Shown: positions 9,150-35,040, numbered from the stretch's first letter. The stretch is 37,805 nucleotides of DNA from Alphaproteobacteria bacterium (GCA_016780765.1 JADHLH010000014.1:1-37805); one strand, 5' to 3'. Program-made: numbers and translations. Notes: generated by a model from the sequence alone, not told the origin.

Positions 9150-9159
9150 CTGCGTTTTC

Positions 9160-9990: not shown

Positions 9991-10002
9991 GATCCCGCCT
10001 GC

Positions 10003-10869: not shown

Positions 10870-10954
10870 AGAGACGGGTCCTTCATTACCGGCGTGGATG
10901 GGTGGATGGATCAATCAATACATAAAATGCAACGCTGGACGCCCAGCGGCAAAT

Positions 10955-10980
10955 CCGGGGGGCGGCGAACCGCCCCCCGG
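10955..10980 (-). other. GC-rich hairpin between smoE and smoF
   Basis: CCGGGGGGCGG and CCGCCCCCCGG are exact complements (11 bp) around a 4-nt loop that reads TTCG on the transcribed strand. It starts 14 nt after the smoE stop. No T-run follows, so it is unlikely to be a full terminator. It fits a hairpin that protects the upstream binding-protein message and reduces read-through, as known for malE-malF in enterics. Confidence 0.8.
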
Positions 10981-10994
10981 CACATAATCAAAGC

Positions 10995-12299: not shown

Positions 12300-12344
12300 T
12301 TTATTCCTCCTGAATGTCATACCGGAAAATACAGCACAGAAATC

Positions 12345-12379
12345 TTTACCCGCGTCAATATAATTTTGACGCGCGTAAA
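12345..12379 (-). promoter_or_regulatory. Twin LacI-type operators in front of smoE
   Basis: Two near-palindromic 14-mers face each other: TTTACCCGCGTCAA (12345-12358) and TTGACGCGCGTAAA (12366-12379). Their centres are 21 bp apart, two helix turns. Together they form a 35-bp near-perfect palindrome. Read in the same orientation they differ at one position. A -10-like TATATT on the minus strand lies at the junction between them. A third copy occurs at 13614-13627. The LacI-type regulator encoded next door is the obvious binder (inference). Confidence 0.75.
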
Positions 12380-12519
12380 TAAAAGCTGCTTGTTAGACAC
12401 CCGCTCCGGGCAGGTCCCTTATGCTGCAACCCGTGGCTTTCAGTCGAAAAACACGTATATCTGTGCTGGGTGGCACTATCATTCAGCGGGCGTCATGCCG
12501 CGCCAACAGATTTTCAGGC

Positions 12520-13551: not shown

Positions 13552-13613
13552 TACAATTTCCAGCAGAGGTGCCATTGCCGCCGGGCGACTGCCCGGTCCG
13601 TCTGCTGGCAATA

Positions 13614-17593: not shown

Positions 17594-17673
17594 AAAGGCC
17601 GGCGGGGTGATCAAACCCGTGTGGCGGTTCGCTGGGCGAAGGCATTCGTCTGGCGGCCTGAATTGAGACCAAA

Positions 17674-17701
17674 GACACAGCCCGGTTGACCGGGCTGTGT
17701 C
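17674..17701 (+). other. 28-bp perfect palindromic hairpin between binding protein and ATPase
   Basis: GACACAGCCCGGT and ACCGGGCTGTGTC are exact complements (13 bp) around TG. The hairpin lies 80 nt after the binding-protein stop and 18 nt before the ATPase ATG. No T-run follows. It probably protects the upstream message or partly blocks read-through. Confidence 0.8.
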
Positions 17702-17719
17702 TGCAGAGTGGTAGAATGA

Positions 17720-18523
17720 ATGACGCCCGCATTACATAAAGACCTGATCAGGATTGATGGCGTCTCACACACCTTCACAACTGAATCCGGCAGCCTTCCC
17801 GTTCTCGACAATCTGACCCTGGGCGTGCCCGAAAACGGTTTTACCGCCATCGTCGGCCCGTCCGGTTGCGGCAAATCAACAGTGACGCGCCTTGTTGCCG
17901 GCTTGTTAAAGCCCGATGCTGGCAGTGTCTGGCTGCAGGGACAGGAAGTCACCTCGCCCCGGTCGGTTGTTGGCATGGCCTTTCAGAATCCGGTGCTTCT
18001 GGAATGGCGCAGTATTCTGAAAAATGTGATGTTGCCGCTTGAGATCGTCTCCAGTTCCCTCAGCTCTGCAGCACGAGAGGCACGCGCCCGCGACCTTCTG
18101 AAACTGGTCGGTCTTGCCGGCTTTGAAGACAAACGCCCGTCAGAACTGTCAGGCGGCATGCGCCAGCGCGCCTCGCTGTGCCGGGCACTTGTCCACCAAC
18201 CAGAGGTTCTGATCCTTGATGAGCCGTTTGGCGCACTGGACGCCTTCACCCGTGAAGATCTGTGGCAGACCATGCACCGGCTGCGCGAGGAAGAGCCGTT
18301 TACCGGCGTTCTGATCACACATGATCTGCGCGAGGCCATCTTCCTTGCTGACGAAGTCATTGTCCTGTCAGGCCGGCCGGCCACCGTGCAATACACGAAG
18401 GCCCTGCCACAGCGCGGACCACGAAGCCTTGATCAGCTCTACACGCCCGAAGCGACCGAGACGCTGAATATTCTGCGGGAACAGATCAAGATTGCCCGCG
18501 AAGGTGAGGAGCCCGGATCATGA
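17720..18523 (+). CDS. NitT/TauT-type ABC transporter ATPase
   Basis: A 267-residue ATPase of the SsuB/TauB/NrtD group. Walker A is GPSGCGKST (46-54), FQNPVLLEWRSILKNV is the Q-loop region typical of this subgroup, LSGGMRQRASLCRAL is the signature, and VLILDEPFGALDAFTRE is Walker B. THDLREAIFLADEVIVLSGR is the switch. It has no C-terminal regulatory domain, as is usual for the group. Its stop overlaps the permease start by 4 bp (ATGA), so the two are translationally coupled. Confidence 0.92.
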   Translation: MTPALHKDLIRIDGVSHTFTTESGSLPVLDNLTLGVPENGFTAIVGPSGCGKSTVTRLVAGLLKPDAGSVWLQGQEVTSPRSVVGMAFQNPVLLEWRSILKNVMLPLEIVSSSLSSAAREARARDLLKLVGLAGFEDKRPSELSGGMRQRASLCRALVHQPEVLILDEPFGALDAFTREDLWQTMHRLREEEPFTGVLITHDLREAIFLADEVIVLSGRPATVQYTKALPQRGPRSLDQLYTPEATETLNILREQIKIAREGEEPGS

Positions 18524-19275
18524 GACAGGTATTTGTTCCCGTTCTTGCGATCGTCCTGTTCCTGCTATTCTGGGAAGGGCTGGTCTGGGTCAATGACTGG
18601 CCAAACTACAAGATGGCATCACCAAGCGATCTGTGGCCTGCATTCTGGCGTTTCAAATGGCTGTTCCTGACTTTCGGCTGGGAGACGTTATGGCGCACTG
18701 TCGTCGGGCTGCTAATCGCCATCGTGGTCGGTGTTCTGCTTGGTATGGTAATGGGGTTTTCACGCGTGTTGCGCGAAGGGCTTTACCCGCTTCTTGTTGG
18801 TTTCAACGCCATCCCAAAGGCCACTGTTGTGCCGATTGTCGCGTTGATGTTTGTTGGCCAGCATGATCTGAACACTGTCCTGATCGCGTTCATGATTTCC
18901 TTTTTCCCGATTGCGGTGTCGGTATCCATCGGCCTGTCGACACTGGAGCCGGAATACCGCGATATTCTGCGCGCGTTGGGGGCATCGCAGATGACGATTT
19001 TCTGGAAGATCGCATTGCCGAAGACGCTTCCTGAGTTTTTTGGCGCCCTCAAGGTTGCGGTGACGCTTGCCTTTATCGGCACCAACCTGATGGAAATTGT
19101 CTCGCCGCATGGGCGCGGCCTCGGCGCACTGTTCGACAGCGGCAAAACAAATTCCGACTATCCGCTGATGTTTGCCGTGCTCATATCTCTGGCGATGCTT
19201 GGTATCGCGCTCTATTACGTCGTTGTGGTGCTGGAACGGATTTTTGCTGGCTGGGCTGAACGCCAGACCGACTAG
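18520..19275 (+). CDS. NitT/TauT-type ABC transporter permease
   Basis: A 251-residue inner-membrane permease (SsuC/TauC type) with six predicted helices. It starts MRQVFVPVLAIVLFLLFWEG and carries the ATPase-docking loop LEPEYRDILRALGASQMTIF, then WKIALPKTLPEF. It completes the importer that starts with the binding protein at 16580. It ends in TAG at 19273. The next gene, a P450, is 247 bp away and may or may not be on the same transcript. Confidence 0.92.
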   Translation: MRQVFVPVLAIVLFLLFWEGLVWVNDWPNYKMASPSDLWPAFWRFKWLFLTFGWETLWRTVVGLLIAIVVGVLLGMVMGFSRVLREGLYPLLVGFNAIPKATVVPIVALMFVGQHDLNTVLIAFMISFFPIAVSVSIGLSTLEPEYRDILRALGASQMTIFWKIALPKTLPEFFGALKVAVTLAFIGTNLMEIVSPHGRGLGALFDSGKTNSDYPLMFAVLISLAMLGIALYYVVVVLERIFAGWAERQTD

Positions 19276-21039: not shown

Positions 21040-21050
21040 CTAGATACTGG
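21011..21050. repeat. 15-bp tandem repeats carrying in-frame stop codons
   Basis: TAGATACTGGCCCCC occurs twice and TAGATACTGG a third time. Read on the minus strand these repeat the last codons of the alcohol dehydrogenase gene: GCC AGT ATC TAG, then GGG GCC AGT ATC TAG twice. The 15-bp period keeps frame, giving three stop codons in a row of repeats. Confidence 0.9.
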
Positions 21051-22185
21051 CTTCAAACAGCGCACGCAGATTATCGGCTGTCAGCGGCACAGGATTGCCG
21101 CCGCAGGACGGGTCTTCCAGCGCCATCGACACCAGATCATCCACGCGCTCACCCGTCACACCCATCTCGCCAAGCCGGCGCGGAATGGCAAAGCTGTCAT
21201 TGAAAGCCTGTACGAATTCGCAAAATCCGTCGAACCCCCCTTCAATTCCCAGATAGGGGGTGGCGCGCTCGAAACGGTCCCTGATCATGGGCGCGTTCAG
21301 CGCCAGCACCGCCGGCATGCATACCGCATTGGTAGTGCCGTGATGTGTGTTGAAAACCGCGCCTACCGGATGGCTCATCGCATGGATAGCGCCAAGTCCC
21401 TTCTGGAAGGCGGTTGCACCCATTGCCGCCGCACTCATCATATGGGCGCGTGCCTCGATATCATCTGGCGTTTTATAGGCGCGCGGCAGATTGTCTATCA
21501 CCAGGCGCATGCCTTCAAGCGCGATACCCTGTGACATCGGATGGTAATGCGGACTGCTGAACGCCTCGACACAATGCGCAAAGGCATCAAGGCCGGTGCC
21601 AGCGGTGATGACGTCCGGCATGCCGACTGTCAGTTCGGGATCCGCAATCACGATGCTGGGCAGCACTTTCGGATGGAAGATGATCTTCTTTACATGCGTC
21701 GCCGAATTGGTGATCACGCTGGCCCGTCCCACCTCGGACCCGGTACCGGCAGTTGTGGGCACGGCGATGATCGGGGCAATGGCGTCGGCGTCGGCGCGGG
21801 TCCACCAGTCACCGATATCCTCAAAATCCCAGACCGGCCGTGTCTGACCGGCCATGAAGGCAACCATCTTGCCAAGATCAAGACCCGAGCCACCGCCAAA
21901 AGCAATCACCCCGTCATGCCCACCAGCCTTGCAGGCTTCGATACCGGCCGCAAGATTGACCTCATTCGGGTTCGGGTCGACCTCGGCAAACAGCGCATGT
22001 TCCAGTCCGGCGGCGGCCAGACAATCCAGCGCCCGCGCCGTAATCGGCAGACCGGCAAGCCCGCGGTCAGTGACCAGCAACGGGCGGCTGATACCAACCT
22101 GTGCGCAGGCCTCGGCAAGTTCAGAAATCCGGCCGGCGCCAAAACGGATCGCCGTCGGATAGGACCATTTTCCGGAAAGGTTCAT
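21040..22185 (-). CDS. Iron-containing (group III) alcohol dehydrogenase
   Basis: A 381-residue cytosolic NAD(P)-dependent dehydrogenase, the usual length for the family. ATG 22185 (MNLSGKWSYPTAIRFGAGRI) overlaps the ALDH stop as ATGA, so the genes are coupled. GGGSGLDLGK is the nucleotide-binding signature and PTTAGTGSEVGRASVI follows. Metal ligands are expected from the Asp-x3-His in LDAFAHCVEAF and the histidines in AIHAMSHPVGAVFNTHHG. It interconverts an alcohol and its aldehyde. Next to an aldehyde dehydrogenase and a glutamine-synthetase-like ligase, an amino-alcohol-derived substrate is plausible (inference). The 3' end is multiplied as a tandem repeat. Confidence 0.9.
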   Translation of the reverse strand: MNLSGKWSYPTAIRFGAGRISELAEACAQVGISRPLLVTDRGLAGLPITARALDCLAAAGLEHALFAEVDPNPNEVNLAAGIEACKAGGHDGVIAFGGGSGLDLGKMVAFMAGQTRPVWDFEDIGDWWTRADADAIAPIIAVPTTAGTGSEVGRASVITNSATHVKKIIFHPKVLPSIVIADPELTVGMPDVITAGTGLDAFAHCVEAFSSPHYHPMSQGIALEGMRLVIDNLPRAYKTPDDIEARAHMMSAAAMGATAFQKGLGAIHAMSHPVGAVFNTHHGTTNAVCMPAVLALNAPMIRDRFERATPYLGIEGGFDGFCEFVQAFNDSFAIPRRLGEMGVTGERVDDLVSMALEDPSCGGNPVPLTADNLRALFEASI

Positions 22186-23561
22186 GATATGACTTTCTTC
22201 AGATGATAGGATTTTGGCCGCGTCAGATTGTGATAGCCAATGACCGACAGCCCGCCGCCACGGCCAGTGTCTTTCACTCCGGTCCAGCACAGGCCGGGGT
22301 CAAGATAATCGGCACGGTTCAGGAACACGGTACCGGTCTCGACCCGGTTGCCAACGGCCTCGGCGCGGTCCAGATCGCCTGTCCACAGGCTGGCGGTCAG
22401 ACCGTAATGGCTGTCATTCATCATCGCAACAGCCTCATCATCATCACGCACCTTCATGATGCCAACCACCGGCCCGAAGCTTTCCTCGCGCATCACGTCC
22501 ATCGCATGCGTGACATTGGTCAGAACCTGCGGCGTCAGATAGGCACCGTCATCATCCGCAGCCATGCGCGCGATATGTGCCACAGCACCAGCGGCAACCG
22601 CTAAGTCAATCTGGTGGCGGACATGCGCTGCAAAACGGACATGCGCCATCGGCCCCATGGTGGTGTCACCATCAAGCGGGTTGCCAAGCCGGTAGTCATT
22701 CACCGTGGCCACGGCACGCGCCACAAAGTCATCATACAGGCTCTCGTGAACATAGATCCGTTCAATCCCGCAGCAGCATTGCCCGGAATTGAACATCGCC
22801 GCATCGACAAGGGTCGCCACCGCCGCATCAAGATCGGCATCGTCCATCACATAGCCGGGATCTTTGCCGCCAAGTTCGGTCCCGACGCCGGTAAAGGTGC
22901 CTGCCGCCGCGCGTTCCATGGCGCGCCCACCGCCAACCGAACCGGTGAAATTGATGAAATCAAACAGCCCGTCAGCAATCAGCGCGGCTGTTGTTTCATG
23001 ATCAAGACAGATATTCACGAACAGCTGTTCCGGCACGCCCGCACTGTGAAACGCAGCGGCAAGACGGTCCCCGGCAAGCAGCGTCTGGGTGGCATGTTTC
23101 AGCACCACCGCATTACCCGCAATCAGCGCCGGCGCGATGGTGTTGATAGCCGTCAGATAAGGGTAGTTCCAGGGCGCAACGACAAACACGACACCATGCG
23201 GCAAGCGCCGTATGAACCGTCTGAAGCTGGCATCCTCGCCAACCTCGATATCGGCCAGTGTGGCAGCGGCAATCGACGCCATATGGCTGGCCCGCTCCTC
23301 AACCCCGCCAAACTCGCCGCCATAGCGCACCGGGCGCCCCATCATACGGGCCAGCTCGGGGACAATTTCGTCATTCGCCGCACCCAGCGCTTTGACACCG
23401 GCATTCACCAGCGCAATCCGTTCATCGAGCGGGCGCGCTGCCCACGCGGTCTGCGTCGCACGAGCGGCTTTGATGGTGGCCGTTGCAGCGGCGGCATCCA
23501 TCGCCTGGCGCACAGCCACAACAGCCCCGTCGATAGGTGAAATACAGCTTATCTCTGCCAT
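22182..23561 (-). CDS. NAD(P)-dependent aldehyde dehydrogenase
   Basis: A 459-residue aldehyde dehydrogenase, in the shorter semialdehyde-dehydrogenase size class. PWNYPYLTAINTIAPAL and the cofactor-contacting Lys156 are in place. The general base is Glu229 (TELGGKDPGYV) and the catalytic cysteine is the middle of QCCC (Cys263). EESFGPVVGI holds the second conserved Glu. ATG 23561 has GGAAGG upstream. It lies 18 bp after the ligase gene and overlaps the alcohol dehydrogenase. In the E. coli Puu pathway an ALDH oxidises gamma-glutamyl-aminobutyraldehyde. A similar acyl-amide aldehyde is likely here, but the substrate is not shown by sequence. Confidence 0.92.
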   Translation of the reverse strand: MAEISCISPIDGAVVAVRQAMDAAAATATIKAARATQTAWAARPLDERIALVNAGVKALGAANDEIVPELARMMGRPVRYGGEFGGVEERASHMASIAAATLADIEVGEDASFRRFIRRLPHGVVFVVAPWNYPYLTAINTIAPALIAGNAVVLKHATQTLLAGDRLAAAFHSAGVPEQLFVNICLDHETTAALIADGLFDFINFTGSVGGGRAMERAAAGTFTGVGTELGGKDPGYVMDDADLDAAVATLVDAAMFNSGQCCCGIERIYVHESLYDDFVARAVATVNDYRLGNPLDGDTTMGPMAHVRFAAHVRHQIDLAVAAGAVAHIARMAADDDGAYLTPQVLTNVTHAMDVMREESFGPVVGIMKVRDDDEAVAMMNDSHYGLTASLWTGDLDRAEAVGNRVETGTVFLNRADYLDPGLCWTGVKDTGRGGGLSVIGYHNLTRPKSYHLKKVIS

Positions 23562-23579
23562 GCTCGGCCTTCCTTCCGG

Positions 23580-24941
23580 TCAGGCGCGCTCGAACCCGCG
23601 CGCCACCTCGTAATCCGTCACAACTCGGTCGAATTCCTCGATTTCCCAGCTTGCTGCACGTGCGTAATGCCGGACAACAGCCTCACCAAATTCGGTGCGC
23701 AGCATCTTCGAGCGCAGCATCGCGGCCCGCGCCTCACGCAGCGTTGTCGGGAGCATCGCCGTGCGCCCGCGATAGACATCGCCCTTGGCTGCGGCTGGCA
23801 GGTCAAGACCCTCCTCAATGCCTGACAACCCGGCGGCAAGCTGTGCCGCCATCGCCAGATACGGGTTCAGATCAGAACCACCAATCCTGCATTCCACCCG
23901 CACCCCGGGCGTGCCGTCACCGCAGACACGAAACCCGGCAGTGCGGTTATCCACCGACCAGATTATCCGCGTCGGTGCGAACGTGCCCTTGGCAAACCGC
24001 TTGTAGCTGTTGATATAGGGCGCCAGAAAATAGGTCGTCTCGCCAGCATATTTCAGCAGCCCGGCCAGATATTGCTGCATGGTTTTTGACATGCCAAGCG
24101 GGGCGTCCGAATCATAGAAGGCAGGCGCGCCGTCCTTCCACAGCGACTGGTGGATATGCGCTGCCGAACCAACCTTGTCATGATGCCATTTTGGAAGGAA
24201 TGAAACAGCACGGCCCTGCTGCCAGCCGATTTCCTTGGCTGCATGCTTTGCGATGGTGTGGTGGTCGGCGGCCAGCATCACCTCGGCATATTTGATGTTC
24301 AGCTCTTCCTGCCCGGTCTCGGCCTCGCCCTTGGAATTCTCGACCGGAATGCCGGCTGCCCGCAGATGATTGCGGAGCGGGCGCATGACATGCTCTTCCT
24401 TCGTCGTCTGCAGGATGTTGTAGTCTTCGTTATAGCCGCTGATCGGCGCAAGATCGGTGTATCCCGACTTGCGGATTTCATCGAAACTCTTTTCGAAAAT
24501 GAAGAATTCCAGCTCGGTGGCCGACATCGCCTCGAACCCCATTGCGGTCGCCCGCGCCACCTGTGTCTTCAGCAAGGCGCGCGGTGAATGCGGCACCTCT
24601 TCATGCGTATGGTGGTCAAGCACATCGCACAGCACCAGCGCCGTGCCTTCAAGCCAGGGAACACGGCGCAGGGTCGAAAGGTCGGGCTTCATGATGTAAT
24701 CGCCATAGCCCGATTCCCATGACGTGGCCTCGTATCCTTCAGGCGTTGCCATTTCAAGGTCAGTGGCCAGCAGATAGTCGCAGCAATGCGTCTCTTCCCA
24801 GGCGCTTTCGACAAAATGTTCGGCGTGAAAGCGTTTGCCGGCAAGCCGCCCCTGCATGTCGACAATACAGACAAGCACCGTATCGATCGTGCCTGCTGCG
24901 GTTTCCGATTTCAGATCCTCAAAAGAGATGTTTCCCGCCAT
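23580..24941 (-). CDS. Glutamine-synthetase-family ligase (gamma-glutamyl-amine synthetase-like)
   Basis: A 453-residue member of the glutamine synthetase superfamily. ATG 24941 (MAGNISFEDLKSETAAGTID) is preferred. Seen: an N-terminal beta-grasp (TVLVCIVDMQGRLAGKRF) and the catalytic domain with MSATELEFFIFE, KGEAETGQEELNIKYAEV, GSAAHIHQSLW, NRTAGFRVCGDG and the metal/ATP segment RIGGSDLNPYLAMAAQLAAG. It resembles PuuA, IpuC and related enzymes that join glutamate to an amine using ATP rather than true GlnA. Its operon with oxidoreductases and ALDH and a Pot-like importer supports an amine-capturing role. The amine could be putrescine, an alkylamine or an amino alcohol. Confidence 0.88.
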   Translation of the reverse strand: MAGNISFEDLKSETAAGTIDTVLVCIVDMQGRLAGKRFHAEHFVESAWEETHCCDYLLATDLEMATPEGYEATSWESGYGDYIMKPDLSTLRRVPWLEGTALVLCDVLDHHTHEEVPHSPRALLKTQVARATAMGFEAMSATELEFFIFEKSFDEIRKSGYTDLAPISGYNEDYNILQTTKEEHVMRPLRNHLRAAGIPVENSKGEAETGQEELNIKYAEVMLAADHHTIAKHAAKEIGWQQGRAVSFLPKWHHDKVGSAAHIHQSLWKDGAPAFYDSDAPLGMSKTMQQYLAGLLKYAGETTYFLAPYINSYKRFAKGTFAPTRIIWSVDNRTAGFRVCGDGTPGVRVECRIGGSDLNPYLAMAAQLAAGLSGIEEGLDLPAAAKGDVYRGRTAMLPTTLREARAAMLRSKMLRTEFGEAVVRHYARAASWEIEEFDRVVTDYEVARGFERA

Positions 24942-25091
24942 GGTCACTTCGAACCCCCTGTTAACAGCCGGATATGCAGACAAACAGACTAGCCGGTCCA
25001 ACCCGTGACGCCAGCCATTTTCGACCTGAATATGATGATATCGGCGGCTGGATCATCGACAAAGCAGGCCAGCCAGGCCCGAACCGCCAAT

Positions 25092-26357
25092 CTATGCCCC
25101 GTTTTGGTCAAACCGGCTTGCAGAATAGCCGTCAAGGCTGACATTCGGGCGATCACCGCAGACCAGCTGTGCTGTCAACTCTCCAGACGCAGGCGACATC
25201 ATCAGACCATAATGCGAGTGGCCAAAATTCAGGAACAGTCCCGGTTGTTCGTCAAGCTGGTCAATCATTGGCAGGCTGTCGGGAAACGAGGGTCTGCACC
25301 CCGTCCACAGGGACACATTGCCTGTCTGCAGATCGGGGAAGGCCGCCTTGGCAAGGCGCAGGAATATCTTCTGTCGCCGCTTCGAGGGCGGCGCGTCTGG
25401 CGGCGCGAACTCGGCATGGCCAGCGACGCGCACACCGCCTTCCATGCTGCTGGCGATGAATTTTGCATCCGCGTCCATGACCGAATGATTCAGTTCGATG
25501 CCCGGGTTCGAAAACTCGGCGTGATACCCCCTCTCTGACATCAGGGGAACTTTATGCTTTATATCCGGCAGCAGATCCGCGCTCCAGACACCCAGACACA
25601 TGATGATGCGTTCAGCTTCATGGTCCCCGTCTTCACACTGGACCGTCCAGCCGGTTTCGCTCTTCTGAAGCCGCTTGATATTGGCCTTCACAAATGTGGC
25701 ACCCAGCCTGGCAGCCTTTTCCGCCAGGATAGCTGCCAGCCGGCCCGGCGCACGCACTCTGGCGGTGCCTTTGACCAGCAATCCGGCCTTGAAATCAGCG
25801 CTGACGGCAGGCTCGAGCCGCGACAGTTCATCCTGTCCCAGAACTTCCATATCCGCGCCTTTCTCGGCGCGAATTCTGCAATCAAGTGCGTCCAGTGTCA
25901 GTTTGCTGCCATCGCGATACAGTTGCAGATACATGGTGTCCACAAGCAACCCCTCATGACCCGTGCCAGTCAGATGCTTTGTGAACAAGTCAATTGAGGG
26001 GCCGCAGAGATTGGCCATCGCATCGGATGTAGCGCGGACCCGCTCCTCACTGCTCTGTTGCAGGAAGCGCGCGCCCCAGGGCAGAATTTTCAGGGCATAT
26101 TTTGGGTGCACGGACAGAGGGCGCCCATGGCCCAGCATCAATTTTGGAATATTCCGCCAAATTCCCGGCACCGCCTGCGGGACAAGTGACCATGGCGAGA
26201 CGACCCCCGCATTGCCGTAGGATGTCGCCTGTCCGGGCTCACCCCGATCAATCAGGATGACCGGCACACCGCGCTCCAACAAGGACAGGGCCGTACAAAT
26301 CCCGACTATGCCAGCGCCAAGGATCGTGACAGGAGTCGCTTTGTCAGGCTGCTGCAT
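25092..26357 (-). CDS. FAD-dependent amine/D-amino-acid oxidoreductase (DadA-like)
   Basis: A 421-residue flavoprotein of the DAO family. The N-terminal Rossmann motif ILGAGIVGICTALSLLERGV binds FAD; IDRGEPGQATSYGNAGVVSP is a strong DadA-type signature. The C-terminal FAD-contact segment is SLWTGCRPSFPDSLPMIDQL, then LFLNFGHSHYGLMMSPASGE. DadA enzymes oxidise D-amino acids to keto acids and pass electrons to the respiratory chain; relatives act on sarcosine and other secondary amines. ATG 26357 has GAGAGG upstream. It starts 10 bp after the PuuB-like gene and 150 bp before the ligase gene. The substrate is open. Confidence 0.88.
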   Translation of the reverse strand: MQQPDKATPVTILGAGIVGICTALSLLERGVPVILIDRGEPGQATSYGNAGVVSPWSLVPQAVPGIWRNIPKLMLGHGRPLSVHPKYALKILPWGARFLQQSSEERVRATSDAMANLCGPSIDLFTKHLTGTGHEGLLVDTMYLQLYRDGSKLTLDALDCRIRAEKGADMEVLGQDELSRLEPAVSADFKAGLLVKGTARVRAPGRLAAILAEKAARLGATFVKANIKRLQKSETGWTVQCEDGDHEAERIIMCLGVWSADLLPDIKHKVPLMSERGYHAEFSNPGIELNHSVMDADAKFIASSMEGGVRVAGHAEFAPPDAPPSKRRQKIFLRLAKAAFPDLQTGNVSLWTGCRPSFPDSLPMIDQLDEQPGLFLNFGHSHYGLMMSPASGELTAQLVCGDRPNVSLDGYSASRFDQNGA

Positions 26358-26367
26358 TCACGCCTCT

Positions 26368-27714
26368 CTAGGCCGTCAACCGGTTGTGGGCAGCCGCACG
26401 CCGGATTTGCCAGTGATCACGCAAACGATACCATTGCACAACCGATGGCAAGAACCACGGCTTGCCAAAATACAGCGGGCGGGTTGGAAACTGCAGATTG
26501 TCGAACGCCGTAGCGCCTTGCGGGTCGCCGACCAGCTGTTGCCCGAGACGCATGCCGAGATAGCTCGCCATGCCAATACCAGACCCGCAATACCCCATGG
26601 CGTAGTGAAGCCCCTCATGCTGGCCAAGATGCGCGTGCGTATCGAAGGTAAAAGCAACCTTGCCTGTCCAGGAATGGGTATAGCCGTAATCCGCAAGCTC
26701 AGGAAAAATCCGGCACATGTCATGATGCAGCCTTGGCCCGCTGATCGCGGGGTTTGTCTCGGCCGCCGACACACGGCCACCAAACAGAATCCGGCTGCGG
26801 TCTGGTGACGGGCGGTAATAATAGATCACCTTGCAGGTGTCACTTGCCACACGGTCCGTCGGAAACAAATTGTCCATCAGAGCCTTTGGCAAGGGATCAG
26901 TCGCAATCATATACGTGCCGATGGGAATGACCCGCCGCTGCAACCACGGCACCAGACTGGTTGTGTAGCCGTTTGTTGCGATGACGATCTTTTCAGCCCT
27001 GATGTCACCCGTCGGTGTGGTCACAACAAAGGCCTTGCCTTCGCGCCTGATGTCCAGAGCCGGGCAGTTATCAGTAACCGCAACACCGGTTTTCTTGGCA
27101 AGATCGAGGACGCCGCTATAGTATTTTGCCGGGTCCACTGACGCGTGCTGCTTCAGCACCACACCTCCGAAATATGCATCCGTGCCAATCTCTGCATGCT
27201 GGTCATCGCGGGACACCACCTCGAATGGCACGCCCTCTTCACGGCCAAGCGTCTGGGTGTCTCTGACAAGGGCATCAAAATGCGCAGGCGTATGCGCGGC
27301 GTGAAATCTGCCACACCGCTGGTAGTCACACGCTATACCCTCGGATTCGATGAACGCGCCAATCCATTCGAGCGAGCGATATCCCTCATCACGAATCGCT
27401 TTCGCCCGCTCGGCGCCGTGGCGCTGGGCAAGCGCGGTGCGCGAGGGTTTTATGCTGGGGCTGATCTGGCCGCCATTTCGCGTGCTGCATCCCCAGCCCA
27501 ATTCATGCATGTCGATAATCTGGGTTGACCGACCGCCACGCGCGGCGGCAATGCCGGCATGAAGCCCGGTGTATCCGGCACCGATGACCACTACATCGGC
27601 ATTGTTCATCGGTGTTGTCGCCGTCGGTGTCAGCGCCGCGATGCCGTCATGCCAGTACACATTGCCCGCGCCGGAATTGGCACTGTTCTGTGCCCCTTCA
27701 CCTTGTCTCGACAT
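26368..27714 (-). CDS. FAD-dependent oxidoreductase (PuuB/OrdL-like)
   Basis: A 448-residue flavoprotein. ATG 27714 (MSRQGEGAQ) has GGGGA upstream; an alternative start nine codons earlier lacks one. The N-terminal GNVYWHDGIAAL and the FAD motif VVIGAGYTGLHAGIAAARGG, followed by GWGCSTRNGGQISPSIKP, are typical of gamma-glutamylputrescine oxidase (PuuB)-type enzymes. The C-terminus has YAMGYCGSGIGMASYLGMRL and FPTRPLYFGKPWFLPSVVQW, again family-like. It would oxidise the amine end of a gamma-glutamyl-amine to an aldehyde. It is the first gene of the five-gene operon and is divergent from the Pot-like importer. Confidence 0.9.
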   Translation of the reverse strand: MSRQGEGAQNSANSGAGNVYWHDGIAALTPTATTPMNNADVVVIGAGYTGLHAGIAAARGGRSTQIIDMHELGWGCSTRNGGQISPSIKPSRTALAQRHGAERAKAIRDEGYRSLEWIGAFIESEGIACDYQRCGRFHAAHTPAHFDALVRDTQTLGREEGVPFEVVSRDDQHAEIGTDAYFGGVVLKQHASVDPAKYYSGVLDLAKKTGVAVTDNCPALDIRREGKAFVVTTPTGDIRAEKIVIATNGYTTSLVPWLQRRVIPIGTYMIATDPLPKALMDNLFPTDRVASDTCKVIYYYRPSPDRSRILFGGRVSAAETNPAISGPRLHHDMCRIFPELADYGYTHSWTGKVAFTFDTHAHLGQHEGLHYAMGYCGSGIGMASYLGMRLGQQLVGDPQGATAFDNLQFPTRPLYFGKPWFLPSVVQWYRLRDHWQIRRAAAHNRLTA

Positions 27715-27792
27715 AATTTTCCCCGGTTCACAATGTCTCAAACGCTGACTAGATTAGAAACCCGACATAGCGGTTGTCGTCAAATGAAACCT

Positions 27793-27821
27793 TTGCCACA
27801 GGCAACTTCTGTGTTTACGCT
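27793..27821 (+). promoter_or_regulatory. Possible promoter of the Pot-like importer operon
   Basis: TTGCCA (27793-27798) and TACGCT (27816-27821) are 17 nt apart, 31 nt before the binding-protein ATG and within the 138-bp divergent region. The -10 box matches consensus weakly, so this is tentative. Confidence 0.25.
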
Positions 27822-27852
27822 TAGGCCAATAACGATCAGTCGGGAGGAATTG

Positions 27853-28914
27853 ATGAGATCATTGTTAAAGTTCAAAACAGCCGCAATTGTAGCCGCCGCA
27901 GTCGGCTTTGCGGGTTTTTCAACCGCAAGCATGGCTGAGGACACACTCCGCATCGTGTCCTGGGGCGGTGCTTACCAAAAAGGCCAATCGGTCGGTATTT
28001 TCCAGCCTGCTGCCAAGGCAATGGGTATCACCGTAAAGGAAGATACTTATGGTGGCATTTCTGACGTCAAACTGATGGTCAAATCTGGCGCAGACAAGTT
28101 TGACATTTTCTCCAGCGGCGCTGGTGGATGTGCTTCAGGTGGTGCCGAGGGCATTCTCGAGAAGCTTGACTACTCGGTGATTGATGTCAGCAACCATCTG
28201 CCAGGCATGTATAGTGACTATTGTGCTGGTGCCGATATCTTCTCGGTTGTGGCCGCTTGGAACACCGAAACATATGGTGATAACGGGCCCCGCACATGGG
28301 CCGACTTCTTCGATGTTGAAAAGTTCCCGGGCACGCGTGCCATGCGCGCAAAAGTGGATGCCCAGCTTGAAGCAGCACTGCTTGCCGATGGTGTTCCTAT
28401 GGAAGACATATACCAGGTGCTTGATAGCGAAGAAGGCATTGACCGTGCCCTCGACAAGATCCGGTCAATCAAGCCGCATATCGCCGTATGGTGGACATCA
28501 GGTGCACAGCATGCACAGCTGATGAAAGACGGTGAAGTCGACATGACAACAGGCTGGAACGGCCGTTTTGACGTCGCCAAACTGGATGGTGCGCAGGTGT
28601 CCTATGACTGGAAAACAGGCATCATGGACTGGGAAGGCTATGGCATTCCCAAGGGCGCCAAAAACAAGGATCTGGCGATGAAGTATATCGCCGAGATGAT
28701 GAAGCCAGAATATATGGCTGAATTCGCCAAATACATCACATATGGACCAACCAACAAGAAGGTCTATGAGCTTAACCTGATGGAAGAGTCTCGCGCGCTT
28801 GAGATGCCTTCACATCCGGATAACGCAAAGCATCAGTTGACATTGAGGACAGCATGGTACGCCAAGTGGAGAACCATTGCCGCCGAGAAATACACTGAAA
28901 TGATGACTGAGTAG
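27853..28914 (+). CDS. PotD-like ABC substrate-binding protein
   Basis: A 353-residue periplasmic binding protein (polyamine-binding PotD/PotF class). ATG 27853 is set by GGGAGGA just upstream; the frame is open further left but non-coding in character. The signal peptide MRSLLKFKTAAIVAAAVGFA...ASMA has probable cleavage before EDTLRIVSW. The start of the mature protein, DTLRIVSWGGAYQKGQSVGI, and the conserved WNTETYGDNGPRTWADFFD and MTTGWNGRF segments fit the family. Members bind putrescine, spermidine, GABA, opines or other small amines. The divergent gamma-glutamyl-amine-type operon points to an amine. It is the first gene of a four-gene importer operon. Confidence 0.88.
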   Translation: MRSLLKFKTAAIVAAAVGFAGFSTASMAEDTLRIVSWGGAYQKGQSVGIFQPAAKAMGITVKEDTYGGISDVKLMVKSGADKFDIFSSGAGGCASGGAEGILEKLDYSVIDVSNHLPGMYSDYCAGADIFSVVAAWNTETYGDNGPRTWADFFDVEKFPGTRAMRAKVDAQLEAALLADGVPMEDIYQVLDSEEGIDRALDKIRSIKPHIAVWWTSGAQHAQLMKDGEVDMTTGWNGRFDVAKLDGAQVSYDWKTGIMDWEGYGIPKGAKNKDLAMKYIAEMMKPEYMAEFAKYITYGPTNKKVYELNLMEESRALEMPSHPDNAKHQLTLRTAWYAKWRTIAAEKYTEMMTE

Positions 28915-28927
28915 ATCATCCTGGGTT

Positions 28928-28947
28928 GGAGGGCGGCGACGCCCTCC
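28928..28947 (+). other. Hairpin between PotD-like and PotA-like genes
   Basis: GGAGGGCG and CGCCCTCC are exact complements (8 bp) around GCGA, 13 nt after the binding-protein stop. The T-rich stretch after it (CATCTTTGTTT) is interrupted, so partial termination or message protection fits better than a full stop. Confidence 0.75.
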
Positions 28948-29033
28948 TACATCTTTGTTTCTGAAATTCTTTGGTTTTGAAAATCGTATTTCAGCCGATC
29001 TGTGCCTTTCAATCTATGGCGGTGACGTGATCC

Positions 29034-30128
29034 ATGGCAGACAGTTCACTTAACATTTCGATCAATGATGTGACAAAAACCTACGGCGATTTTCATGCGC
29101 TGAAGGATGTGAGTCTTGAAGTCACCTCAGGGGAATTCCTGACCTTGCTGGGGCCATCCGGGTCCGGCAAGACGACATTGCTTATGGTGCTTGCCGGCTT
29201 TACCAGCCCTGATTACGGCAGCGTCAAATTTGGTGATGAAGAAGTTATTCTGAAGCCGCCTCACCTGCGCGGCATCGGCATGGTGTTCCAGAATTACGCC
29301 CTGTTCCCGCATATGAATGTGGCGGAGAATGTCGGCTATCCGCAAAAGCTGCGCGGTGTCAGCAAGGAAGACACCCGAGAGAGTGTCGATAACGCGCTGG
29401 CCACCGTAAAGCTTGACGGGCTTGGGCATCGCCGCGTTGATGAATTATCCGGCGGTCAGAGACAGCGCGTTGCGCTGGCACGCGCCATCGTCTTCCAGCC
29501 AAAAATTCTGTTGATGGACGAACCGTTGTCAGCTCTCGACAAGAAATTGCGCGAGGAAATGCAGATCGAGCTGCGCCAGCTTCACGACAGTCTGAACATG
29601 ACTACGGTCTATGTGACTCACGACCAGAAAGAAGCGCTGACAATGTCAGACAGGATTGCTGTCATCAATGACGGGCAATTGATGCAGCTGGGCACACCGA
29701 ACGAAATTTACCGCAGGCCGAACAACGCGTTTATTGCGGATTTCATTGGTGAGTCGAGCTCGTTGCCGGCAACCGTCAAGAATGGCATTGCCAGCATCGG
29801 GTCGGCGAAACTCAAAGGCGCGCAAAAACTCGAAAAGGATGGGAATTTTCTGCTGGTTATCCGCCCGGAAAAACTCTTCATCGCCACCAAAAAGTCTCGT
29901 GACGCAAACCATTTTGAAGGCGTGGTAGAGGATTCCATTTTTCAGGGTGAAAGCCAGTTGATGGTCATCAAGCTGGACCCGCAGAACTATGGTGAGCAGT
30001 CGCTTCGCCTGCGGCTGCCAAATGGAAGTGCGCAGGATGACGAACTGCCCGGCATTGGCGAGAAAGTCACCCTTGGTCTGAAAGTTGCCGACAGCTATTT
30101 CGTGGAAGCAGCCAATGGCGGTGCTTGA
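29034..30128 (+). CDS. PotA-like ABC transporter ATPase
   Basis: A 364-residue ATPase of the polyamine/opine importer class. Walker A is GPSGSGKTT (40-48), VFQNYALFPHMNVAENV is the Q-loop, [15 protein letters not shown] is the signature, and ILLMDEPLSALDKKLRE is Walker B. THDQKEALTMSDRIAVIN is the switch. The C-terminal ~110 residues hold the TOBE-type regulatory domain (FIADFIGESSSLPATVK; VIRPEKLFIA), as in PotA/PotG. The 119-bp gap before it holds a hairpin. Its end overlaps the first permease gene by 14 bp. Confidence 0.93.
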   Translation: MADSSLNISINDVTKTYGDFHALKDVSLEVTSGEFLTLLGPSGSGKTTLLMVLAGFTSPDYGSVKFGDEEVILKPPHLRGIGMVFQNYALFPHMNVAENVGYPQKLRGVSKEDTRESVDNALATVKLDGLGHRRVDELSGGQRQRVALARAIVFQPKILLMDEPLSALDKKLREEMQIELRQLHDSLNMTTVYVTHDQKEALTMSDRIAVINDGQLMQLGTPNEIYRRPNNAFIADFIGESSSLPATVKNGIASIGSAKLKGAQKLEKDGNFLLVIRPEKLFIATKKSRDANHFEGVVEDSIFQGESQLMVIKLDPQNYGEQSLRLRLPNGSAQDDELPGIGEKVTLGLKVADSYFVEAANGGA

Positions 30129-31002
30129 TCAGAACCTCAATCAGGCTGCGCTGACACAGCTTGCGCAGCGTGAGCATTACACCTTTTTTGGCCTGACCCT
30201 GCCCTACCTGGTCTTGGTCGGGGCGATGATCATCATCCCGATTGGCTGGCTGTTCTTCCTGTCCTTTATCGGCAGAGACGGGTCATTCTCGTTCGAGAAT
30301 TACGAGCGGATGATCAATTCGAAAGCCTATATCCGCATCTTTCTGACAACTTTCAAGATCAGCATCCTGACTACATTCTTCTGTGCATTGCTTGGCTATC
30401 CGCTGGCTTACTTCATGTCGCAGATTTCCCGGAAATGGGCCAACATCTGCATGATCGGCGTGTTGATCCCGTTCTGGACAAGCCTTCTCGTACGCACCTA
30501 TGCATGGCTTGTTTTGCTTCAGAAAAAGGGGTTGGTGAACAGTGTCGCTGTCGATCTCGGCCTGATCAGCGAACCGATCAAGTTTGTGCACAACACGTCG
30601 GGAACGCTGATTGGCATGGTTCACATCATGCTGCCATTCCTGATCCTGCCCCTTTATGCCAACATGCGCGCGATTGACCCGCATTGTGTCAAAGCGGCCT
30701 CAAGCCTTGGCGCGACGCCGACGCGGGCGTTTTGGACGGTGTTCTTCCCGCTCAGCATCCCGGGCCTGCTTGCCGGCCTGCTGATCGTCTTTGTTCTGTG
30801 CCTTGGTTTCTACGTCACCCCTGCGGTTCTTGGCGGCGGCAAGGTCATCATGGCGGCGATGAAAATCTCCAGCAATATCGAGCTTTATTTCAGCTGGGGC
30901 GCGGCAAGCGCGCTTGGCGTTGTCCTGCTGGTTGTCACCATGCTGATATTGTTCATCGCATCGAAACTGGTCTCGCTGGACCAGTTTGGTCAGCGGAGCT
31001 AG
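30115..31002 (+). CDS. PotB-like ABC transporter permease
   Basis: A 295-residue inner-membrane permease. ATG 30115 (MAVLDQNLNQAALTQLAQRE) with GGAAG upstream is preferred over an earlier in-frame ATG inside the ATPase gene. It has six predicted helices beginning at LTLPYLVLVGAMIIIPIGWL. The segment WTSLLVRTYAWLVLLQKKGL is typical of PotB/PotH. The ATPase-docking loop is IDPHCVKAASSLGATPTRAF, then WTVFFPLSIPG. It ends 3 bp before the PotC-like gene. Confidence 0.92.
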   Translation: MAVLDQNLNQAALTQLAQREHYTFFGLTLPYLVLVGAMIIIPIGWLFFLSFIGRDGSFSFENYERMINSKAYIRIFLTTFKISILTTFFCALLGYPLAYFMSQISRKWANICMIGVLIPFWTSLLVRTYAWLVLLQKKGLVNSVAVDLGLISEPIKFVHNTSGTLIGMVHIMLPFLILPLYANMRAIDPHCVKAASSLGATPTRAFWTVFFPLSIPGLLAGLLIVFVLCLGFYVTPAVLGGGKVIMAAMKISSNIELYFSWGAASALGVVLLVVTMLILFIASKLVSLDQFGQRS

Positions 31003-31005
31003 GTC

Positions 31006-31842
31006 ATGGGATTTCTCGACAAGAATGTCTCTGACACCCAGATCAAGCTGCGCAACCGGCTTTGGCTTTACTTCCTCTCGGCGATCATTCTGTTCCTTCT
31101 GATCGTGCCGTCGCTGGTCGTGATACCAATGTCCTTTTCCAGCAGCCAGTATCTGGAATTCCCGCCAAAGGAGTGGTCGTTCCGGTGGTATGAGAATTAC
31201 TTCTTCTCATGGAAAGTGGAAAATGGATTCAATGACTGGATGGCAGCGACACGCACATCCTTGCTGGTTGCCGTCCTGACCATTTTTGTTGCGACACCGA
31301 TTGGCACGCTGGCGGCCTATGGCCTGACCAACAGCACTTCCCGCCTGCGCGCAGTTCTGTTCCCGATCATGATCTCGCCAATGATGGTGCCGATCATCCT
31401 TGTCGCGATCGGGCTTTTCTATTTCTACGTCCAGTTCAAGATGGTGAACAGCATTCTCGGGCTGGTGCTGGGACATTCACTTGTGGCCATGCCGCTTGTT
31501 CTGATCATCGTCATGTCGGCGCTGAAGAATTATGACATGAACCAGGAAAAGGTGGCCCGCTCGCTTGGTGCCAGCCGGCCCCGCGCCTTTGTCGAGATTA
31601 CCCTGCCGCAAATCAAGTTCTCGCTGATTTCCGCCTCGCTGATCTCGTTTCTTACATCGTTTGACGAGATTATCATCTCGCTCTTTGTGTCGGGTGGTGA
31701 CAATTCAACCATCACTCGCAGCATGTTTCTGACGTTGCGCGACCAGATTGATCCGACGATTGCAGCGATATCGACAATCCTCATCATCATTTCGTCAGGC
31801 CTGTTGATTATCTCGCAATTGCTCAGCAGCAAGAGCAAATAG
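31006..31842 (+). CDS. PotC-like ABC transporter permease
   Basis: A 278-residue inner-membrane permease with six predicted helices. It starts MGFLDKNVSDTQIKLRNRLW, followed by the first helix (LYFLSAIILFLLIVPSLVVI). SFRWYENYFFSW is the periplasmic motif typical of PotC/PotI. The docking loop is YDMNQEKVARSLGASRPRAF, then VEITLPQIKFS. It closes the importer operon. The 80-bp gap after it, towards the convergent acyl-CoA synthetase gene, shows no clear terminator. Confidence 0.92.
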   Translation: MGFLDKNVSDTQIKLRNRLWLYFLSAIILFLLIVPSLVVIPMSFSSSQYLEFPPKEWSFRWYENYFFSWKVENGFNDWMAATRTSLLVAVLTIFVATPIGTLAAYGLTNSTSRLRAVLFPIMISPMMVPIILVAIGLFYFYVQFKMVNSILGLVLGHSLVAMPLVLIIVMSALKNYDMNQEKVARSLGASRPRAFVEITLPQIKFSLISASLISFLTSFDEIIISLFVSGGDNSTITRSMFLTLRDQIDPTIAAISTILIIISSGLLIISQLLSSKSK

Positions 31843-31922: not shown

Positions 31923-34031
31923 CTAGTCCCGGGGCCCGGGCACCACAAGGCAATCGACGGCACAGGACCCGTCCGCACCGCAGATCATCGGGTTGATGTC
32001 AATTTCAGCGATCGCATCATCAAGCGCGGCGACCATCTGTGAAAAGCGCACCAGCTGCGTGACCACTGCCTCCATATTAGCGGGCGGTTGCCCCCGGTAT
32101 CCGGCAAGCAATTCTGAAATGCGTAATTCACCAAGCAGGTGCCGCGCCTCATCCGCATCAAACGGGGCGCGTGCCGCGACCTTGTCCGCCAGAAATTCGA
32201 TCATCACACCACCGGCAGACACAATCACCACCGGGCCAAAGCCGGGATCATAAATCGCGCCAAGTGAAAGCTCGGTGCCGGATGGCACCATCTCCATGAC
32301 CAGCGCTTGCGGTCCAAGCCGAAGGGCAATGTCCTGATAGGCGGCGCTGGCCGCCACCGCATCAGTGATGTTGAGTCTGACACCGCCAACATCACTTTTA
32401 TGGGCATAGTCCTCGGCGGTCTTAATCACCACCGGGAAATGCATATCTGACAACGCCGCCTCAAGCTCATGCAAGGAGGCGACCCTCGCCATCCCCGGTG
32501 TGACAAGTCCGAAATCAGCGAGCATGGCAAGGCCGTCAGCTTCTGTGACCGGTCCTTTTTCGCCAAGCCGGGATCGCCAGCGCGTGACCATCTGGCCATC
32601 AGGTGACGGCGCGGCTGGTGTGGTGGCGCGTGCCCTTGCATGACGGTCATGACGGTCACGATAGTCCCGATCATTCATCACATGGCGCACGGCAAGCAAT
32701 GCATTGCGTGTCCCGCGCAACAACGGTACGCCGGCCTGGCGCAACCTGATGGCAAGATCACTGTCACCGGCCATCGAATAGTTGGAGGCCAGTGCCAGCG
32801 GCTTGTCGGTCATCTGCGCTGCCTTCATCACGGCCCGGCTATAGCTTTCCGCATATTCATAGCCGTCACGCGGGTTTGACATGAACAGGCCGATGCCAAC
32901 ATTCGGATCATTGACCAGCGCGGCGATCAGGGCGGCAAACCGGTTTTCAAGATCATTATGCGTGCCAAAGGCATCAAGCGGATTTTCAGCCACCAGACCG
33001 GGTTCAAGATGGGCCGCAAGCGCGCTGCAGGTGGCCGGCTCCAGGGCGGCAAATTCAATGACGTAATCCTCGGCGATATCGACGATCAGTTCACGCTCAC
33101 CGCCAGAATCATGAATGGATCCCAACTGGCCGGGGGCTGGTTTGCGCGAGGTGTCAAACAGCGCCAGCGTCGCCGCCATTTCATCCATATCAGCAACCCG
33201 GTGTACGCCATAGGCGCGAAACACCGCCTCATAGACCGCGTCATTGCCGGCGATTGCCCCTGTATGCGACACCGCCATCTGTGCACTCTTCGCTGTCCGA
33301 CCTACTTTCAATATCACCACCGGGATGGCGCGCTGGCGCGCCGCGTCAAGTGCCTGCAGAAATCCTGCCGGATCACGAATTGTTTCAACAAAAAGGCCGA
33401 TAACCCTGGTCTCTGGCTGATGCAGCGCCCAGTCCATATAATCGGCAACTGTGGTGACAAGTTCCATGCCGGTGGAAACCGCAAGCGTGAACCCCAGCCG
33501 CCTGTCGTTATTTGGCAGCGCGCTGAAGGCCGATCCCGATTGCGCAATCCACGCAATGCCGCCCTTTTGCAATCCTGACGGTGAAACAGCACTGGCCACG
33601 CGCAGCCCTGCAGACGGCGTGTAAAAACCCATGCAATTCGCGCCGCAGACCGCCATGCCTGCTTCTGCGGCCTTTGCAGCAATGCGGGCTGACAAATGGG
33701 GGCTGTCATCATCATCCAGATAGCAGGCGGCAAAAATTGTTGCCGCCTTTACGCCAAGCCCGATCGCCTGATCAAGGATGGCCTCAACAAACCGGCTGGC
33801 GACCCCGATTACCACATGGTCAGGCACCTCTGGAAGCGCACCAAGATCGGGGTAGCAAGGCTTGCCAGCAAGCACGGCAAGGCGCGGGTTCACCGGATAG
33901 ATAGTCCCCGTAAAGCCGTCGATCTGGCTCATCGCCAGCATCGCCGCGCCTGTACTGTCTGGCCGGTCTGATGCCCCGACAAAGGCAATCGACCGCGGAC
34001 AAAGAAGGGGACCGAGAGGGTGTTGTGTCAT
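31923..34031 (-). CDS. NDP-forming acyl-CoA synthetase (fused subunits)
   Basis: A 702-residue enzyme of the acetyl-CoA synthetase (ADP-forming) / acyl-CoA ligase family, reversibly joining a carboxylic acid to CoA with NTP. Domains in order: CoA-binding (LCPRSIAFVGASDRPDSTGA, residues ~8-135), succinyl-CoA-ligase-like with the phospho-histidine in VSHTGAIAG (His256), and a C-terminal ATP-grasp domain (~480-700) with FPVVIKTAEDYAHKSDVGGV and AEIDINPMI. The alpha-beta fusion order is common in bacteria. Specificity cannot be read; archaeal relatives use acetate or aryl acids, others pimeloyl or malonate-like acids. It is divergent from an enoyl-CoA hydratase-like gene, so the two may act on one acid (inference). 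Confidence 0.9.
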   Translation of the reverse strand: MTQHPLGPLLCPRSIAFVGASDRPDSTGAAMLAMSQIDGFTGTIYPVNPRLAVLAGKPCYPDLGALPEVPDHVVIGVASRFVEAILDQAIGLGVKAATIFAACYLDDDDSPHLSARIAAKAAEAGMAVCGANCMGFYTPSAGLRVASAVSPSGLQKGGIAWIAQSGSAFSALPNNDRRLGFTLAVSTGMELVTTVADYMDWALHQPETRVIGLFVETIRDPAGFLQALDAARQRAIPVVILKVGRTAKSAQMAVSHTGAIAGNDAVYEAVFRAYGVHRVADMDEMAATLALFDTSRKPAPGQLGSIHDSGGERELIVDIAEDYVIEFAALEPATCSALAAHLEPGLVAENPLDAFGTHNDLENRFAALIAALVNDPNVGIGLFMSNPRDGYEYAESYSRAVMKAAQMTDKPLALASNYSMAGDSDLAIRLRQAGVPLLRGTRNALLAVRHVMNDRDYRDRHDRHARARATTPAAPSPDGQMVTRWRSRLGEKGPVTEADGLAMLADFGLVTPGMARVASLHELEAALSDMHFPVVIKTAEDYAHKSDVGGVRLNITDAVAASAAYQDIALRLGPQALVMEMVPSGTELSLGAIYDPGFGPVVIVSAGGVMIEFLADKVAARAPFDADEARHLLGELRISELLAGYRGQPPANMEAVVTQLVRFSQMVAALDDAIAEIDINPMICGADGSCAVDCLVVPGPRD

Positions 34032-34194
34032 GCCATCGTCACACCAAAAAATTCCACATTACATGAACACCCAAAAAGCAACATTCGTCCAGCGTCCAAT
34101 TGGTGATTTGATCCCGGTGTCCAGAAATTTTCCTTACCCCTGTCCCCAACAGCTTGTTAGCCTTTATGGGCACGCCACGATAAAGGACGGTTCC

Positions 34195-35040
34195 ATGAGC
34201 AATGAAAATCCGGGGAGCAATGAAAATCCGGAGAGCGACCAAAGACCAATCACCACCCGAATTGATGGCCGTGTTGGCATTCTGACCTTTCATCGGCCGC
34301 GGGTGATGAACGCCTTTAACAGCGCGCTTATTGATGCAACCAATCAGGCAATGGATGCCTTCATGAATGATGACGCGGTGCTGGCAATCATCGTGCATGG
34401 CGATGGCCGGTGCTTTTCAGCCGGATTTGACATGAAGGAGAGCGCTGCCCGCGGAATCAGTGGTGAAGATGAATGGCGGGACGTTCTGACCAAGGATTTT
34501 GACTTCATCATGCAGTTCTGGAACGCGCCGAAGCCGACCATTGCGGCGGCGCACGGCCATTGCATCGGCGGAGCGATGGAATTGTTGATGGCGTGTGATC
34601 TGGCCGTTGCAAGTGAATCCACCTTGTTTGGCGAGCCAGAAGTTCGCTTTGGATCCGGCATTGTTGCCATGCTTGCGCCCCATGTGATTGGCCCGAAGCA
34701 GGCCAAGGAATTGTTGCTGACCGGCAATGACAGGGTCAACGCCCAGCGTTGCTATGAGATGGGCATCCTGAACCGTGTCGTCGCCGACGGTGATGAGATG
34801 AAGGCGGCGATGGCATTGGCCACCCAGATCACCAGCGCCGCACCGCGTTCGGTGCAGATGACCAAGGCCGCAATTCACCGCAGCTATGAACTTGCAAAGA
34901 TGCGAACAGCATTGCTGGAGGCGCTGGAAACAGACATCCTGATCGAGGCCGATGAATCGCCCGAAAGAGTGGAGTTCAACCGCATCCGCAAGGAACAGGG
35001 GCTAAAGGCGGCATTGGCATGGCGTGATGCACGCGCGTGA
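34195..35040 (+). CDS. Enoyl-CoA hydratase/isomerase family protein
   Basis: A 281-residue crotonase-fold enzyme acting on acyl-CoA. ATG 34195 has AAAGGA upstream. The N-terminus MSNENPGSNENPESDQRP comes from an 18-bp duplication. The oxyanion-hole segments are GRCFSAGFDMKE and AAHGHCIGGAMELLMACDLA. Both acidic residues of true hydratases are present at the right 20-residue spacing (Glu129 in AMEL, Glu149 in FGEPEV). The usual PGAGG loop after the second Glu is replaced by GSGIVAMLAP, so the substrate or reaction may differ from plain enoyl-CoA hydration. It is divergent from the acyl-CoA synthetase. Its last 65 bp overlap the tail of the convergent membrane-protein gene. Confidence 0.9.
   Translation: MSNENPGSNENPESDQRPITTRIDGRVGILTFHRPRVMNAFNSALIDATNQAMDAFMNDDAVLAIIVHGDGRCFSAGFDMKESAARGISGEDEWRDVLTKDFDFIMQFWNAPKPTIAAAHGHCIGGAMELLMACDLAVASESTLFGEPEVRFGSGIVAMLAPHVIGPKQAKELLLTGNDRVNAQRCYEMGILNRVVADGDEMKAAMALATQITSAAPRSVQMTKAAIHRSYELAKMRTALLEALETDILIEADESPERVEFNRIRKEQGLKAALAWRDARA
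34198..34233 (+). repeat. 18-bp tandem duplication in the hydratase N-terminus
   Basis: AGCAATGAAAATCCGGGG is followed at once by AGCAATGAAAATCCGGAG, one base different. It keeps frame and repeats the peptide SNENPG/SNENPE just after the start codon. Confidence 0.9.

Follow-up and report, generated by a model that had tools for sequence, protein, structure and literature searches.

The closest described counterpart of the genes considered here is the ethanolamine operon of Phaeobacter sp. MED193 (MED193_10021-10056), which encodes an RpiR regulator, the gamma-glutamylglycine amidohydrolase GGAH, EtoV, EtoW and EtoX, the ethanolamine gamma-glutamylase ETAGA, GAADDH, and the gamma-glutamylethanolamide dehydrogenase GETADH (PMC10132767). 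The proteins of this operon are induced on phosphorylethanolamine, EtoX binds ethanolamine (7.9 uM), as does its C. salexigens homologue, and surveys of marine ethanolamine users have relied on the EtoX transporter gene as their marker (PMC10132767). Gamma-glutamylethanolamide is also the first intermediate of the Streptomyces GlnA4 route (PMC6529630), which we liken to this pathway by its published description and not by sequence. A second related locus, SPOA0380-0384 of Ruegeria pomeroyi, carries a PuuB-like oxidase and an ABC importer. The label of spermidine for SPOA0381-0384 goes back to an earlier expression study, as cited in PMC9038784, and mutants of the same organism assign polyamine uptake to SPO3466-3469 (PMC10130141). 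The E. coli Puu pathway follows a common logic of glutamylation, oxidation and hydrolysis, and likewise employs a GS-family ligase and an aldehyde dehydrogenase (ALDH).

The window, i.e. the whole stretch of DNA analysed here, comprises 37,805 nt from Alphaproteobacteria bacterium (GCA_016780765.1 JADHLH010000014.1:1-37805), with the region under study at 21040-31842. The source assembly (2.25 Mb, 124 contigs, 82% complete) is a member of the SAR116 clade. Translation and profile searches located all genes with intact reading frames (Table 1). As described in the original prediction, five minus-strand genes are divergent from a complete PotDABC-like importer, with ~240 bp between the two sets, and an extra alcohol dehydrogenase and a DadA-like enzyme are present. 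The five genes had been read as a single operon; all are present on one strand, but their spacing hints at two units. The PuuB-like and DadA-like genes are 10 bp apart, the ligase and ALDH genes 18 bp, and the ALDH and iron-type alcohol dehydrogenase (Fe-ADH) genes overlap by 4 bp, whereas 147 bp separate the DadA-like gene from the ligase gene. A promoter and terminator scan of this gap, the module boundary, gave no informative signal, its single hit being a weak promoter-like minus-strand match; the genes on either side may be co-transcribed. We refer to the ligase, ALDH and Fe-ADH genes (21040-24944) as module A, and to the PuuB-like, DadA-like and importer genes, probably together with the flanking acyl-CoA ligase and enoyl-CoA hydratase genes, as module B. 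The names DadA-like and PuuB-like denote the family only, as the two proteins score far below the curated NCBIfam cut-offs (202 bits against 383 and 154 bits against 600, respectively).

Table 1 Features of modules A and B in the window.
Feature	Coordinates	Strand	Evidence
Module A: iron-type alcohol dehydrogenase, GETADH orthologue	21040..22185	-	Fe-ADH Pfam; metal-site motifs present
Module A: aldehyde dehydrogenase, GAADDH orthologue	22182..23561	-	Aldedh Pfam; catalytic Cys and Glu motifs present
Module A: GS-family gamma-glutamyl ligase, ETAGA orthologue	23580..24944	-	5dm3 match, tree, residues
147-bp gap, boundary of modules A and B	24945..25091	-	Sequence; DadA and GS on different contigs in G056
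Module B: DadA-like FAD oxidase, DAO family	25092..26357	-	Profile searches; 81% identical G056 copy
Module B: PuuB-like FAD oxidase, DAO family, SPOA0380 orthologue	26368..27615	-	57% to R. pomeroyi SPOA0380
Module B: solute-binding protein (SBP), GABA/opine branch, SPOA0381 orthologue	27853..28914	+	58% to SPOA0381
Module B: ABC ATPase, PotA-like	29034..30128	+	potA subfamily model above cut-off; conserved across module B loci
Module B: ABC permease, PotB-like	~30115..31002	+	Profile searches; module B loci
Module B: ABC permease, PotC-like	31006..31842	+	Profile searches; module B loci
Probable module B partner: NDP-forming acyl-CoA ligase	31923..34031	-	Profile searches; position in other loci
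Probable module B partner: enoyl-CoA hydratase family	34192..35040	+	Same position in other loci; family by translation

Further genes lie elsewhere in the window. The gene at 3610-5373 encodes a TPR-repeat protein with an adenylate/guanylate cyclase domain. The minus-strand cluster at 5864-13608 comprises a LacI-type regulator, an SBP, two permeases, a UgpC-type ATPase, a mannitol dehydrogenase family protein and an L-iditol 2-dehydrogenase-type SDR scoring above its cut-off, and probably serves sugar-alcohol uptake and oxidation. An NMT1/taurine-type ABC importer (16580-19275, identified by eye) and a cytochrome P450 gene (19523-20701) are located between ABC-2-type exporter genes and module A.

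In a sequence search of the structure database, the best solved relative of the module A ligase was 5dm3 (750 bits), the ligase of the Chromohalobacter counterpart. A scan of public genomes with the ligase yielded 80 loci, mostly from Roseobacters, plus Halomonas, Chromohalobacter and others. Most of these keep the order ligase-ALDH-Fe-ADH, and their Fe-ADH and ALDH are 70-82% and 60-78% identical, respectively, to the window proteins at the same position; the ligase is 73-76% identical to its nearest TRAP-linked relatives. In Roseobacters, the three genes are preceded by genes for an RpiR regulator (divergent), a hydrolase of the FGase family and a TRAP transporter, which matches the published MED193 order. 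At the Chromohalobacter locus, the TRAP binding protein matches 4uab (762 bits), a structure that we take to hold ethanolamine. A MAG with the label Rhodothermales and the actinomycete Enemella also carry ligase relatives of 72% identity, through horizontal transfer or mis-binning.

In a phylogenetic tree, the window ligase is nested inside the TRAP-linked ligase clade, with the five other GS genes of the genome outside. Relative to E. coli GlnA, the ammonia-site residues E327 and Y179 are replaced by F and D, respectively, both being retained in the genome's own GlnA, while the glutamate and metal residues E129, E131, E212, E220, H269, R321, R339, R344, E357 and R359 are kept. The same ammonia-site residues are replaced in the TRAP-linked relatives. 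A variable ligase position (H/N/S in GYNEDY-x-I) gave no usable pattern. Together with a score of 230 bits against the GlnA cut-off of 429, the tree and the ammonia-site replacements rule out a true GlnA, as had been anticipated. By orthology, order and phylogeny, module A is thus assigned to the ETAGA/GAADDH/GETADH ethanolamine pathway of Phaeobacter and Chromohalobacter, and ethanolamine would be its substrate in this genome. The earlier proposal that the two dehydrogenases suit an N-glutamylated amino alcohol oxidised at its hydroxyl end agrees well with the published pathway of the orthologues, and for the same reason the description of the system as uncharacterised does not hold for module A, whose pathway is not new (PMC10132767).

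The surroundings of module A differ from those in MED193 and Chromohalobacter. RpiR, GGAH and EtoVWX are not found at the window locus, where the core is joined to module B. Neither GGAH nor EtoX was found in the window genome (82% complete), EtoX giving only a weak partial match. We surveyed 61 genomes of the family, calling the module A ligase at an identity of at least 60% and the B-type SBP at at least 48%; the ligase was present in 15, the SBP in 13 and both in eight. GGAH was not found in 14 of the 15 genomes bearing module A, the sole carrier (G015) acting as a positive control, nor was EtoX in 13 of the 15; G015 has EtoX, and G052 has two fragments of it at contig edges. Several of the genomes without GGAH or EtoX are 99-100% complete, so that incompleteness alone does not explain these absences. 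Module A in SAR116 usually occurs without the TRAP transporter and GGAH, which is a new finding; our literature search returned no paper naming both SAR116 and ethanolamine. The absence of both leaves the final step and the uptake step of the pathway without their known proteins, and because GGAH was not found, the core is classified as a variant of the ETAGA pathway rather than a complete member. EtoVWX is not universal elsewhere either, as rhizobial module A loci carry an amino acid permease in its place. The cores of rhizobia and of some Roseobacters (L171, L172, L052) adjoin ABC importers that are not of the window SBP type and are possible alternative ethanolamine importers.

Several genes were considered for the missing hydrolytic step. 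A gamma-glutamyltransferase, encoded in 12/12 genomes of the genus, might act on gamma-glutamylglycine. In several members of the genus, module A has an Amidase-family gene at a distance of 2-4 kb. This gene is only a weak candidate for a replacement hydrolase, since it is also present in G054 and G058, where the module A ligase was not found, and the window genome carries it (68% identical) at an unlinked position. Peptidase_C26, sought for a PuuD-type hydrolase, gave only weak partial matches in the window genome, typical of other amidotransferases. MBL-fold (G029, G025, G051) and nitrilase-family (G055) neighbours were rejected because they are not conserved beside module A, and an FGase-family gene next to a Der-like GTPase gene was rejected as not GGAH-like. 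The rarity of GGAH would be explained if module A of SAR116 acted on another amino alcohol, such as alaninol or aminopropanol, with the product cleaved by a different hydrolase. The close identity of the ligase to its TRAP-linked relatives and their common ammonia-site replacements speak against such a change of substrate, as does the gamma-glutamyltransferase, and we see only a slim chance for it.

Comparison of genomes indicates that modules A and B are separate loci brought together here. A 99% complete genome of the same genus (G056) carries PuuB, DadA, SBP, PotABC, acyl-CoA ligase and enoyl-CoA hydratase genes together on contig C1, where DadA (81% identical) follows PuuB without a GS gene, apart from the ligase-ALDH-Fe-ADH genes on C7. 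On one 2.75-Mb contig of G015, about 1.9 Mb separate an eto operon with GGAH, EtoX, EtoV, EtoW and RpiR (0.12 Mb) from the module B SBP gene (1.99 Mb). The available flanks of module A in the 80 loci, some of them short, yielded neither a B-type SBP nor a PuuB orthologue. Within module B, a PuuB-like gene accompanies the SBP in nearly all loci, and the acyl-CoA ligase and enoyl-CoA hydratase genes occupy the same place in six other loci of the family. Orthologues of module B without a GS-family ligase are found in R. pomeroyi (SPOA0380-0384, tags inferred by gene counting from SPOA0374), Pseudosulfitobacter and Roseovarius plasmids. The R. pomeroyi locus resembles the window in its PuuB-like oxidase, SBP and importer and in a nearby acyl-CoA ligase of the same family, but has no DadA-like gene by PuuB, and GMC and enolase-superfamily genes lie nearby. 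Module B is widespread in marine Roseobacters. Its frequent partners are a GMC oxidoreductase and a mandelate racemase-like member of the enolase superfamily, with a cupin in some cases (L166-L168, L116, L161).

Of the eight genomes with both modules, three (the window genome, G020 and G031) have A next to B, and four (G056, G015, G025 and G029) do not, their modules lying on different contigs except in G015. G018, in which module A follows the B-associated GMC-MR genes, was counted in neither group. In G031, G020 and G018, GS-ALDH-FeADH follow directly on B-associated GMC and enolase-superfamily genes, at spacings of ~40 bp or less. In the tree, the window ligase is placed away from those of G020 and G031, and a second genus of the family also has joined A and B genes, so that module A was apparently joined to B genes twice independently. 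Under a crude five-placement model, applied post hoc, the chance of two independent junctions is ~8e-4. Hot spots for catabolic genes could cause such repeated junctions, and a looser functional link between the modules is possible. In four genomes (G056, G052, G057, G049), module A is located near an amidase, and contig C60 of the window genome shows the same amidase neighbourhood without it; module A thus seems to have moved from its usual genus site in the window lineage.

Co-conservation of the ten genes had been set in advance as the test of a single uptake and glutamylation system. It is largely lacking, and one integrated ten-gene unit is not supported; the counterpoint is the rejoining of A and B in the other genus. 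On the integrated reading, the ABC importer would stand in for the lost TRAP transporter by importing ethanolamine or a similar amino alcohol, and the FAD oxidases would act on the imported or glutamylated compound. The recurrent adjacency, the rarity of EtoX in the family and the ABC importers beside rhizobial module A loci, though of another subfamily, are in its favour. Set against it are genomes with B and no A (G010-G014), genomes with A and no B (e.g. G052, 99% complete), the unlinked modules in four genomes with both, and a predicted binding site whose carboxylate-type Arg would be superfluous for ethanolamine. We consider this reading improbable.

This site was derived from the SBP sequence. 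In the structure-database sequence search, the SBP gave its strongest matches to 4i1d, MotA and GABA sensors and a far weaker one to PotD, and it scored 44 bits against the PotD model cut-off of 582, which places it in the GABA/opine branch. Eight residues define the GABA site in 9d57 (PMC12999171). Five of them are identical in the SBP (W35, F128, W233, R236, Y295), one is conservatively exchanged (D228->E259) and two differ (T13->Y39, F100->D126; SBP numbering counted from base 27859). Across 14 aligned homologues, R236 is invariant and position 259, 23 residues further on, is always E or D, and the site pattern is common to all but one. A carboxylate-type Arg combined with an amine-type acid suggests a zwitterion over ethanolamine or a plain polyamine. 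The module B ligand is therefore predicted to be a zwitterionic, GABA- or opine-like amino compound, probably, and ethanolamine or plain polyamines are unlikely ligands.

A Puu-type polyamine system, with PotDABC import, glutamylation and PuuB-like oxidation, was also weighed. Although the PotA subfamily model passes its cut-off and the R. pomeroyi orthologue bears the expression-based spermidine label, the R. pomeroyi mutants place polyamine uptake elsewhere. Polyamine catabolism is rejected as a candidate on the basis of the ligase score (178 bits against the gamma-glutamylputrescine synthetase cut-off of 650), the affinity of the SBP to the GABA/opine branch rather than PotD, and the separation of PuuB and ligase on different contigs in G056; we regard such a system as very improbable. 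Compared with E. coli, oxidation in the window would be carried out by Fe-ADH, and the PuuB-like gene belongs to the separate module. No PuuD, PuuE or PuuR was found at the locus, and PuuD, the GABA transaminase and PuuR are missing from the whole window, as already noted in the original prediction.

Taken together, the comparative data make it likely that a known ethanolamine core, module A, has been joined to a separate module for uptake and FAD-dependent oxidation. The ligase would couple ethanolamine to the gamma-carboxyl of glutamate, yielding gamma-glutamylethanolamide; Fe-ADH would oxidise the hydroxyl to an aldehyde, ALDH would convert this to gamma-glutamylglycine, and cleavage would then release glutamate and glycine. 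Module B, of the SPOA0380-0384 type, would combine ABC uptake and FAD oxidases, likely for a zwitterionic amino compound. Module A, which seems to have left its usual genus site, lies head-to-tail behind PuuB-DadA. Points against this explanation are the A-B joins in the G031, G020 and G018 context, the failure to find GGAH and EtoX, and the 82% completeness of the genome. As a long shot, module B might import an amino-acid-like N-substituted compound (e.g. N-hydroxyethyl, opine-like), from which the FAD oxidases release ethanolamine for module A; such an internal supply would account both for module A lacking a transporter and for its repeated joining to B.

Beyond the known pathway, two features make this locus worth attention: a hydrolase and a transporter that are missing in SAR116, and a junction with module B that recurs. 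The case warns against reading adjacent marine operons as a single pathway. Ethanolamine from membrane lipids is a marine nitrogen source, and surveys based on EtoX will overlook SAR116 genomes that encode the catabolic enzymes, should most of these lack it.
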